Assembly (NCBI GenBank): GCA_016207765.1
Contig: JACQOY010000198.1
Span: 1-13,368, forward strand
Direction: 5' to 3'
DNA length: 13,368 bases
Source of the DNA: Deltaproteobacteria bacterium
GTDB taxonomy: Bacteria > UBA10199 > SBBF01
Shown here: positions 1 to 4,503 of the stretch, piece by piece
Numbering within the stretch: position 1 is the first letter of the stretch
How the letters are laid out: every line of letters starts with the position of its first letter
Notes under the pieces: model-generated
What the model was told of the DNA's origin: nothing
What the model saw: the letters and a program-made list of their open reading frames with translations, nothing else
Databases searched by the model: none
Made by a program: the position numbers and the translations under genes

Positions 1-1777
<1,777 letters not shown>

Positions 1778-1782
<5 letters not shown>

Positions 1783-1807
1783 GGGCGCACAGCCGTGCGC
1801 CCGTACA
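1778..1807. repeat. GTAGGGGC-type palindromic element between uvrB and uvrC
   Basis: A hairpin with 13-bp arms and one mismatch: TGTAGGGGCGCAC (1778-1790) and GTGCGCCCGTACA (1795-1807) around a 4-base loop AGCC. The uvrB stop codon (TAG, 1780-1782) is inside the left arm. The right arm ends five bases before the likely uvrC ATG and supplies an alternative GTG at 1795. The outer sequence GTAGGGGC matches the arms of the second palindrome at 3163-3190, while the inner bases differ. This suggests a family of dispersed short palindromes rather than a gene-specific terminator. There is no T-run after it, so an intrinsic terminator is unlikely. It may act as an RNA hairpin in the uvrB-uvrC message. 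Confidence 0.75.
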
Positions 1808-1812
1808 GAGCC

Positions 1813-3381
1813 ATGATCAATTTAAAAGAAAAAATCGCCGAATTCCCGACCTCGCCGGGCGTTTATCTGATGAAAGGGGAGACGGGGAAAATTATCTATG
1901 TGGGAAAGGCGGTCAATCTCCGCGCCCGCGTCCGAAACTATTTTGCGAAAGAGGCCGATAGCCGGTATCAGATTAAGTTTCTCATGAATCGGGTGAAGGA
2001 TATCGACACTCTCGTCACCGACAATGAAAAAGAGGCCCTCCTTTTGGAGAACAGCCTCATCAAAAAACACAAACCGCGCTACAATATCTTCCTCAAGGAC
2101 GACAAAACCTATGTCAGTCTCAAGTTGACTGCCAATCATCCTTTTCCAAGCCTCATTGTCACCCGCAAAATCAAAAAAGACGGAGCGCTCTATTTCGGCC
2201 CCTATTCGTCAGCTCAAGCCTGCCGCGAAACGGTCGATTTTATCTATCGCCATTTTCGTTTGCGCACCTGCTCGGACCACGAAATCAACAACCGGTCGCG
2301 TCCCTGTCTGGAGTATCAGATCCATCGATGCACGGCCCCCTGCGTTGGCTATGTCAGCCAAGAGGATTACGGCAGGCAGGTTGATCAGGTCCGCTTGTTT
2401 TTGGAAGGAAAGAGTGAAGCGCTCATCACACAGGCCGAAGAAAGCATGAAGCGGGCCTCCGACGAAGAACGTTTTGAGGAGGCGGCCCGGTTGCGCGATC
2501 TGTTGGCGAATATCAAGACCACGCTCGAAAAGCAGAAGGTAGTCAGGCATGGCGGTTTGCATCAGGATCTGGTTTCACTCTATCGGGAGGGAAACCGCGG
2601 TGTGATTGCGCTTTTTGTCATCCGCGATGGAACGTTGATCGATTCCCGCTACTATCCGGCTCTGTGTCTTGAGGAAGAGGCTCAGGTGATCGAGCATTTC
2701 TTGAATCAATATTACCTCGGTTCTGTTTTCATCCCGGATGAAATTCTTGTCTCGCATCTTCCGGAAGATTCGGCGCTCCTCGCCGGGCTTTTGACTTCGA
2801 TACAGGAAAAAAAGGTTGTCATTCGCGCGCCGCAAAAGGGGGAGAAGAAGGATTTGATCGAGTTGGCGGAGAAGAATGCCCGCTCGCAGTTTTCACGTCT
2901 GGTCAATAAGGAATATCAGACACAGGAGGCGCTCAAACTGCTTCAGGAGGCCTTGGGCCTTTCCAAATTTCCGCACCGGATGGAGTGTTACGATATCTCG
3001 AACATCTCCGGAAAGCAGGCAACCGGTTCCCGTGTCGTCTTTGTCGATGGCGAGCCGGACAAGAAGGAGTACCGTCATTACAAAATCAGGATGGACGGGG
3101 AACCAAACGATTATGCGATGATGAGGGAGGTGTTGGGGAGGAGGTTTGGTCATTTGACGGCTGTAGGGGCAATTCATGAATTGCCCCTACCCGACCTTCT
3201 CGTCATCGATGGTGGCAAGGGGCAACTTAACACGGCTTTGCGGGTCCTGGAAGAATCGGGTTTTGGCCAAATTGCCGCGATCGGTGTGGCCAAGGGAAAA
3301 GGGGCGGGGGCGCGGGCCAAGGGTTTGTGGAAAGGGAAAAAAGAGGGGAAATTTTTATCCCCCACCGCAAAAATCCGCTGA
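1813..3381 (+). CDS. uvrC: UvrABC system protein C (excision nuclease), prematurely terminated by an apparent frameshift
   Basis: UvrC makes both incisions in nucleotide excision repair: the N-terminal GIY-YIG domain cuts 3' of the lesion and the C-terminal RNase H-like domain cuts 5'. I chose the ATG at 1813 because homologues begin close to the [11 protein letters not shown] block. The GTG at 1795 lies in a palindrome and adds six unlikely residues. Visible parts are GIY-YIG ([25 protein letters not shown]), a cysteine-bearing segment ([16 protein letters not shown]), a UVR motif ([13 protein letters not shown]) and the endonuclease core. In that core the first catalytic Asp is codon 2992-2994 (MECYDISN) and the second is 3208-3210 ([11 protein letters not shown]). 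A palindrome encodes VGAIHELPL in frame just before the second Asp. The frame ends at TGA 3379-3381 after non-homologous residues. The conserved continuation is in another frame to 3488, so the annotated product (522 aa) lacks the third catalytic residue. Family assignment is certain; functionality is doubtful. Confidence 0.93.
3163..3190. repeat. Perfect 28-bp palindrome inserted in frame within uvrC
   Basis: GTAGGGGCAATTCA (3163-3176) is followed directly by its exact reverse complement (3177-3190). In the uvrC frame it encodes V-G-A-I-H-E-L-P-L without a stop or shift. It lies in the variable linker between RRFGHL and [13 protein letters not shown], where other UvrC proteins have a short, non-conserved loop. 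Its outer GTAGGGGC is shared with the palindrome at 1778-1807. I interpret this as a dispersed palindromic element tolerated inside a protein loop, comparable in principle to the in-frame palindromic elements of Rickettsia. I make no claim of homology to them. Confidence 0.85.
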
Positions 3382-3488
3382 TCCTCAAAAGAGGCTCCCC
3401 GGAGTTGATGCTTCTCCAACGTCTGCGGGACGAGGCCCACCGGTTTGCCATCAAGTATCACCGATTGTTGAGGGATCAAAAACTATAA
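3345..3488 (+). pseudogene. uvrC: Out-of-frame 3' remnant of uvrC (RNase H-like core end with the catalytic His; no helix-hairpin-helix domain)
   Basis: Reading from about 3345 in the -1 frame relative to the upstream uvrC frame gives [19 protein letters not shown], then [20 protein letters not shown], then LLRDQKL and TAA at 3486-3488. This is the conserved UvrC block that normally follows the second catalytic Asp. The His of RDEAHRF (codon 3438-3440) is the third member of the family's Asp-Asp-His metal site. Restoring the frame needs one extra base, most simply in the A6 run (3337-3342) or the G4 run (3345-3348). Even then the protein would end about 558 residues long, without the roughly 60-residue C-terminal (HhH)2 DNA-binding domain. 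The segment overlaps the 3' end of the convergent minus-strand gene by 13 bp. It could be a sequencing or assembly indel or a real mutation. Confidence 0.8.
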
Positions 3489-4440: not shown

Positions 4441-4503
4441 CTAGCCCCCTTCGGGGACAAGGGCCTGTAACGCTCTCCGCCTACGGCGGATCGCTAACAG
4501 GCT
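4441..4503 (-). promoter_or_regulatory. Intergenic hairpins between the Omp85 gene and the thioesterase gene; one contains the ribosome-binding site
   Basis: This is the only sizeable gap inside the minus-strand operon. Read on the minus strand it contains GCCTGT ... ACAGGC outer arms around a central TCCGCC-GTA-GGCGGA hairpin (plus-strand 4475-4489). A second small hairpin follows, CCCC-GAA-GGGG, whose 3' side is part of the AAGGGGG Shine-Dalgarno sequence of the thioesterase gene. The outer symmetry is imperfect inside the arms. The structure could be a dispersed REP-like repeat, an RNA-stabilising or processing hairpin, or an element that lowers thioesterase translation. There is no T-run, so a simple intrinsic terminator is unlikely. 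Confidence 0.5.

Follow-up and report, generated by a model that had tools for sequence, protein, structure and literature searches.

Is a perfect palindrome inside the reading frame of a DNA repair gene an accident of local sequence, or is it a member of a dispersed family of DNA elements that enter genes and become protein? The question is raised by the uvrC gene of the window, by which we mean the whole 13,368-nucleotide stretch of DNA analyzed here. At positions 3163 to 3190, the 28-nt sequence GTAGGGGCAATTCATGAATTGCCCCTAC forms a perfect palindrome with two 14-nt arms and no loop (as a palindrome it is assigned to neither strand), and it supplies the codons for V457 to L465 and the first base of that for P466, that is, nine codons and one nucleotide, read as VGAIHELPL(P). 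The uvrC ORF reads open across it; sequence, symmetry, and frame are all as the initial annotation had described them. When up to three mismatches were allowed, GTAGGGGCAATTCATGAATTGCCCCTAC matched once in the window and never in 200 dinucleotide shuffles, and the predicted single-stranded fold of this copy had a z score of -7.3, which no shuffle matched. Our preferred reading, held at a probability of roughly 80%, is that the 28-mer is a nonautonomous double-foot GTAG-REP mobilized by a transposase (TnpA_REP, or RAYT) like those of subclass 2.4, and that it survives in tolerant protein loops. Such a very short element comprises a GTAG end, a complementary CTAC end, a self-complementary core, and a stem whose base is GGGC/GCCC, and as a single strand it is predicted to fold into one hairpin.

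The position of the palindrome within UvrC is that of a loop. The AlphaFold model was weak (mean pLDDT, 67.6; pTM, 0.39) and served for loop position alone; in it, the element is a low-confidence stretch (residues 453 to 462) between a helix (439 to 451) and a strand (468 to 472). UvrC C-terminal structures recovered by a PDB search align across the element site, and the loop lies just before the Asp of LLVIDGG, which we take to be the second catalytic Asp. Geobacillus UvrC (3c65) has GLPLPDL at this spot and no element.

The surrounding locus holds a second copy. The family member GTAGGGGCGCACAGCCGTGCGCCCGTAC, at positions 1779 to 1806 (likewise without an assigned strand), lies between uvrB and uvrC with a single mismatch in the arms and one core pair that does not match, and it is the related upstream palindrome that had been noticed earlier; it is real. 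The uvrB gene (positions 1 to 1782, plus strand) has its 5′ end cut by the contig, and its stop codon lies inside this element: the TAG at 1780 to 1782 comes from the GTAG of the copy. Because the copy thus forms the uvrB stop codon, cotranscription of uvrB and uvrC would place a hairpin in the transcript. The uvrC ORF is listed from a GTG at 1795 (positions 1795 to 3381, plus strand; 528 amino acids), and as this GTG sits inside the 1779-1806 element, the ATG at 1813 is the likelier start. The ORF ends early through a frameshift 3′ of the palindrome (window positions 3340 to 3488), and comparison with locus L017 of a same-family genome, G001, places the conserved last ca. 46 residues of UvrC at 3348 to 3488 on the plus strand in a different frame; in G001 itself, the uvrC frame is unbroken. 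The frameshift could be genuine or could stem from an error of assembly, and on its account the window copy is no proof of a working UvrC. A second palindromic repeat, CTCTCCGCCTACGGCGGATCGC, unrelated to the first, lies between two genes at window positions 4473 to 4494; with up to three mismatches, it occurs at 9 places in the genome, the reversed control giving 0.

The source genome (G000; 1.89 Mb in 256 contigs, 84% complete) contains the exact arms GTAGGGGC and GCCCCTAC, 12 to 13 nt apart, in 34 copies on 32 contigs, the reversed control again giving 0. This is the search that the initial annotation had called for, and a lack of further copies, which it had named as fatal to its idea, is not what we found. 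Relaxing the search to at most three mismatches returned 88 places in G000 against 41 in the reversed control, so the weak tail of inexact copies is partly chance. The exact 28-mer of the window recurs on contig C43, and a 29-nt copy lies on contig C125 (L062). Of the 33 cores of 12 nt, 24 are perfectly palindromic and another 7 deviate at one of their six pairs; cores with at most one mismatch thus number 31 of 33, compared to a random expectation of 0.5%. The core types themselves vary (GTATTGCAATAC eight times, GTAATGCATTAC four times, AATTCATGAATT twice, and others), and as they differ while staying palindromic, it is the pairing that is kept while the letters change.

The family is also widespread. 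The 46 genomes of the phylum that we sampled (class and phylum sampling return the same 46) include 19 with the double-foot pattern, the control being 0 in all of them. At least 120 IMG/VR viral stretches carry the 28-nt double-foot pattern as well; 80 of these viral loci were counted, and among their 81 sites, 68 have a core with no more than one mismatch. The exact 28-mer of the window occurs in two of the 80 (L272 and L285) and in five further viral loci (within L352-L372). The element family is therefore wide and extends to contigs filed as viral.

These counts bear on two ways in which the palindrome could be something other than a mobile element. It could have grown in place, template switching having turned native LPLPDL codons (TTGCCCCTACCC) into a palindrome; the GLPLPDL of Geobacillus UvrC means that the right arm could be native, with a net gain of 4 residues. 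A purely local origin, however, does not account for the same arms recurring 34 times in one genome and appearing in 19 of 46 genomes, or for the exact 28-mer on contig C43 and on viral contigs, and we regard it as most improbable. Just as improbable, in our estimation, is an artifact of assembly or binning by which palindromes were misplaced: G000 is fragmented and incomplete (256 contigs, 84%), and the very gene in question is frameshifted, but separate genomes have elements at the same sites, and the frames stay open through 19 sites.

Those 19 sites emerged from 56 that were scored on the DNA flanking the exact copies and a portion of the inexact ones; where a long frame has an exact copy immediately 5′ of a likely start, as in four cases (L005, L006, L013, and L061), the copy was not counted as intragenic. 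At least 19 elements lie in frame inside 17 genes of G000, accounting for 14 of the 34 exact copies and at least five less exact ones. The exact copies are hosted by uvrC and by genes for a multihaem cytochrome, ctaA, an hpnA-like epimerase, purH, trmD, recG, truA (two copies), a TPP enzyme, pheS, a radical-SAM protein, a YacP-like NYN protein, and a KBL/BioF-like aminotransferase; the less exact copies are hosted by thiD, the TPP enzyme (again), and genes for a VWA protein, a cusB-like protein, and a carboxyltransferase. The KBL/BioF and cusB names rest partly on reading, the Pfam assignments being Aminotran_1_2 and HlyD_D23. For 16 of the 17 host genes, both sides of the element are covered by an aligned orthologue or by a family profile; for the multihaem cytochrome, the support consists of CxxCH motifs on either side. 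The earlier proposal that dispersed palindromic DNA enters genes in frame and becomes protein segments accordingly holds in G000, where its companion remark, that such insertions are rare, does not.

Two of the three frames are used. Read as GTA GGG GC, the element begins with VGA (13 elements); read as nGT AGG GGC, it gives RG (six elements); the third frame has a TAG stop. With their inserts, TrmD, PheS, RecG, and TruA score above NCBIfam cutoffs, while ThiD (173 of 205 bits), the HpnA-like epimerase (259 of 368), and CtaA fall below, as does PurH, whose contig ends inside the gene. Because uvrC itself is frameshifted, these four passing scores are the main evidence for tolerance, and both trmD and pheS are essential in model bacteria. 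Coding insertions would on this account survive, presumably as neutral changes, in tolerant loops and in one of the two open frames. With at least 14 of 34 exact copies intragenic, trmD and pheS among their hosts, small mobile DNA can feed protein loops on a countable scale.

Might the inserts instead be retained for what they do, either by altering UvrC and other repair proteins (a mutator idea raised in PMC3733652) or as hairpins in DNA or mRNA? The presence of repair genes (uvrC and recG) among the hosts would fit, as would the copy that doubles as the uvrB stop codon, with its potential hairpin in a uvrB-uvrC transcript. Against this, the hosts are mixed (trmD, pheS, purH, thiD, ctaA, the hpnA-like and cusB-like genes, the carboxyltransferase gene, and others), the peptide varies with the core, two frames are in use, and in 24 of 29 orthologue comparisons the site is free of GTAG elements and of other repeats. 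A selected function is unlikely in our view.

The orthologue comparisons also address what an insertion does to the length of its host. Eighteen stretches were joined as a query, searched in the same-family genomes G001 and G002, and then aligned, the local gaps being counted visually. Three elements, those at the cytochrome and TPP-enzyme sites, had no or weak matches and were dropped, which left 15 elements and 29 comparisons. In five of these, the relative likewise has a repeat at that position, and the other 24 are repeat free. Of the 24, 19 show G000 to be longer, by +2 to +6 codons net: trmD, +6/+6; the hpnA-like gene, +6/+6; the VWA gene, +6/+6 (two G001 paralogues); the radical-SAM gene, +6 (G002); thiD, +5/+3; purH, +3/+5; recG, +2/+3; ctaA, +3/+5; the carboxyltransferase gene, +4/+4; the cusB-like gene, +4 (G002 only); and the second truA site, +5 (G002). 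The other five differences were 27, 27, 51, -6, and -33 nt, from pheS at +9 (G002), the NYN gene at +9 (G002), the KBL gene at +17 (G002), the second truA site at -2 (G001), and pheS at -11 (G001, which has a long loop). The initial annotation had the uvrC element adding nine residues; nine codons are indeed encoded, but the net gain in these 19 comparisons is smaller than the nine codons that an element fills. This means that the elements mostly replace native loop residues or that the loops were trimmed later, and the former would be the usual outcome of an insertion under our reading.

Native-looking codons at the right end of several elements (LLEYPHYTRP, LLRTHTSP, LRPDxYV, and LPDLL) had suggested a fixed 24-nt insertion at a preexisting CTAC, which would always keep the frame. 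We rejected this idea, as a net difference of 24 nt was seen in 0 of 24 comparisons. The net differences were 6 to 18 nt in the 19 comparisons above, and 18 nt was seen seven times (trmD twice, the hpnA-like gene twice, the two VWA paralogues, and the radical-SAM gene versus G002). Such variable net lengths are unlike clean site-specific transposition.

G000, G001, and G002 belong to one family and represent three genera, and they provide orthologous addresses with different cores, so that replacement in place and reinsertion become testable against each other. At the UvrC loop, G001 has a 48-nt GTAG element whose junctions differ from those of G000, and G002 has the 28-mer GTAGGGGCACGGCATACCGTGCCCTTAC, whose right junction is the same as in G000 (TAC, then CYGA). 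G015, from another family, has a 68-nt GTAG element in this loop, and G005 (L019) has an unrelated palindromic repeat, AATCCCCC...GGGGGGATT, in frame. It had been anticipated that close relatives might simply lack the nine residues, or might encode the same residues by nonpalindromic DNA; what G001 and G002 carry in this loop is neither, but different GTAG elements. A survey of the UvrC linker covered 110 loci (30 from the 46 phylum genomes and 80 named), of which 98 were parsed, the 12 missed all being named ones. Linker length in the 98 parsed proteins ranges from 5 to 53 amino acids, and inverted repeats with arms of at least 8 were found in 5 of the 98, namely, in G000, G001, G002, G005, and G015, or 5 of 30 phylum loci versus 0 of 68 named loci.

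Different elements in the same uvrC loop suggest either that cores are exchanged in place or that one permissive loop is hit repeatedly; the loop would have held an element since the family ancestor in the former case. Repeated, independent insertion, by which the UvrC loop and a few others are hot or tolerant spots and the elements of relatives are unrelated events, has in our judgment a little under an even chance; as it concerns the history of the sites, it is compatible with the identity of the element as a double-foot GTAG-REP. The unrelated repeat of G005 and the 68-nt element of G015 point in this direction, as do the differing junctions of the G001 UvrC element and the inserts found in G001 at other G000 sites. 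One truA site has a longer GTAG element in G002 and another repeat in G001, and the KBL-like gene of G001 (L164) has, at the site of the G000 element, a different insert encoding the peptide ENGDPWIPAFAGMT, presumably a common dispersed repeat. A repeat similar to AATCCCCC... lies at a truA site of G001 (L156) where G000 has a GTAG element. Two shared junctions are harder to reconcile with unrelated events. The right junction in uvrC is exactly common to G000 and G002, although it is the weaker evidence, because Geobacillus UvrC has LPLPDL natively and the shared codons could therefore be native. In the YacP-like NYN gene, both junctions are common to the 28-nt element of G000 and the 40-nt element of G001, which differ in core. 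In the radical-SAM gene, the elements of G000 and G001 are offset by one base on the left and by about 14 on the right.

Exchange in place would leave the flanking codons and the GTAG/CTAC arms where they are and swap the core for types of the resident genome, whether through TnpA_REP cutting at the feet or through conversion between copies. The uvrC cores differ between the genera: the core of G002 resembles other G002 copies (the ACGGCATGCCGT type, which is absent from the 34 exact copies of G000), and the core of G000 recurs in G000. We consider such exchange a tentative and rather doubtful proposal. If it is true, loops such as the UvrC linker would be cassette sites at which several residues are rewritten without loss of frame. 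The literature that we covered, with few subscription papers and no supplementary tables, contained no report of a core change at a fixed intragenic address and none of a UvrC loop occupied by several families of elements.

What might mobilize the double-foot elements? The initial annotation had suggested looking for a REP-associated transposase, and one that is likely the mobilizer was found in relatives (12 of the 46 genomes), with none detected in G000 itself. In the 84% of G000 available, neither the Pfam model PF01797 (Y1_Tnp) nor the L081 protein, taken from G044, found a Y1 transposase. PF01797 has matches in 38 of the 46 genomes, and the L081 query recovers one RAYT subfamily in 12, including G001. 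L081 itself scores 29.4 bits with PF01797, and G038 has 0 Pfam matches and two L081 matches; the model scores this subfamily poorly because an insert splits the domain, and the L081 query is for that reason the better negative. From the 12 genomes, 16 distinct ORFs were read, the short fragments among the 25 matches being left out. In 14 of the 16, a GTAGGGGC...GCCCCTAC element of 28 to 137 nt lies in frame with both arms 3′ of the HuH motif; of the remaining two, L118 has one arm and L121 has none that is exact. The motif NH[IFV]H is present in 15 of 16 (L121 has NHLH), WQ is present in 16 of 16, and YIxNNP is exact in 7 of 16, with the looser Y[IV]xxNP in 16 of 16. By these features, the RAYT of the relatives appears to resemble subclass 2.4 in its double foot and internal in-frame REP and, in part, in its motifs. 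Thirteen of the internal elements exceed 28 nt, and the length of every one of them is 2 modulo 3 (L117, L119, L120, L122-L127, and L131-L133).

The self-tagged transposase genes of relatives suggest why these elements tolerate reading frames: if the transposase gene is where they reside, selection would act against variants that introduce a stop into its frame. In G044, the transposase-internal copy is also the commonest 28-mer of the genome, accounting (with itself included) for 11 of 21; another copy starts at the 3′ end of the transposase gene and is cut by the contig end. Across the sample, 28-mers occur in 9 of the 12 genomes with the RAYT subfamily versus 10 of the 34 without it (Fisher P = 0.015, uncorrected for kinship), and the link is a modest one; G021, listed as 100% complete, has 32 copies without the RAYT subfamily. 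Y1 transposases in general were rejected as drivers, with 28-mers in 14 of 38 PF01797 genomes versus 5 of 8 others (P = 0.25), and most of the Y1 places listed are of other types, with no tags inside the frame. In G028 (L107), a piece of a subfamily RAYT gene with its internal element adjoins uvrC, possibly by chance. Copying and insertion would most probably have been carried out by a subclass 2.4-like TnpA_REP, which G000 may have lost or whose gene may sit in the missing 16% of the genome.

How, then, does the element compare with systems already known? It is a double-foot GTAG-REP, a kind that has been described before, and in-frame uvr copies are already in print; what is unusual here is the heavy intragenic load. 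The parallel originally drawn was with the Rickettsia palindromic elements (RPEs), which, as cited in PMC3733652, likewise insert palindromic DNA in frame into many proteins. That paper gives a CGTC tag for the R. conorii RPEs, a greater length for RPE-1, and no transposase association for CGTC repeats, whereas the present elements end in GTAG and CTAC; judged by tag, they do not match the RPEs, and the double-foot GTAG-REPs of subclass 2.4 (PMC6006769) are closer. Palindromic amphipathic repeat coding elements (PARCELs; PMC2996958) are also palindromic DNA coding for protein segments, and the title and opening of that abstract discuss their repeat coding sequence together with intragenic tandem repeats.

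Nearer at hand are the GTAG-REPs of Di Nocera et al. (2013; PMC3733652), with which our elements share the GTAG tag, the hairpin, intragenic in-frame copies, and TAG stops. That report places in-frame GTAG-REPs in Uvr, Rec, and pseudouridine-synthase genes, records a GTAG-derived stop codon, and notes that in two Xanthomonas species the recB gene has a copy at roughly the same position. In the families of that report, GTAG stands unpaired at only one end and most copies are intergenic, whereas the present elements have a tag at either end and 14 of the 34 exact copies are intragenic. In the 28-mer, GTAG pairs with CTAC, and we therefore file it under the double-foot variant. The feet are unpaired in the 48-nt uvrC element of G001, which is predicted to form two back-to-back hairpins with free GTAG and CTAC; that element is like a REPIN, in which REP doublets form a hairpin (Bertels and Rainey, 2011; PMC3116915), in contrast to the single 28-nt hairpin of the window.

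The closest likeness is to subclass 2.4. According to Quentin et al. (2018; PMC6006769), double-foot REPs belong to this TnpA_REP subclass, whose genes contain in-frame elements; its REPs begin with 5′ GT[AG]G and end in a complementary C[TC]AC 3′, with three consecutive G-C pairs at the stem base (stated for the canonical long REPs), and its enzymes have the motifs NH[IFV]H, WQ, and YIxNNP, with elements between HuH and Y. The GTAG matters for recognition and cleavage by TnpA_REP, to a degree that differs by system (PMC8266576). GTAG...CTAC feet are present in the window copy, and the pattern used for the search ensures them in each of the 34 exact copies; the GGGC/GCCC arms fit three G-C pairs; and 34 copies on 32 contigs fit the dispersal of a double-foot REP. 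Our elements and those described in PMC6006769 thus have in common the feet, the GC-rich stem base, dispersal, a scattering over several phyla, and, in relatives, in-frame elements inside the transposase gene between HuH and Y. As no subclass 2.4 tnpA_REP was found in G000 (84% complete), we file the palindrome as a member of the element type and not as part of a resident REPtron. It differs from the described subclass, then, in lacking a detected transposase in its own genome, in having many copies inside core genes, and in that elements with differing cores occupy one and the same UvrC loop in several relatives.
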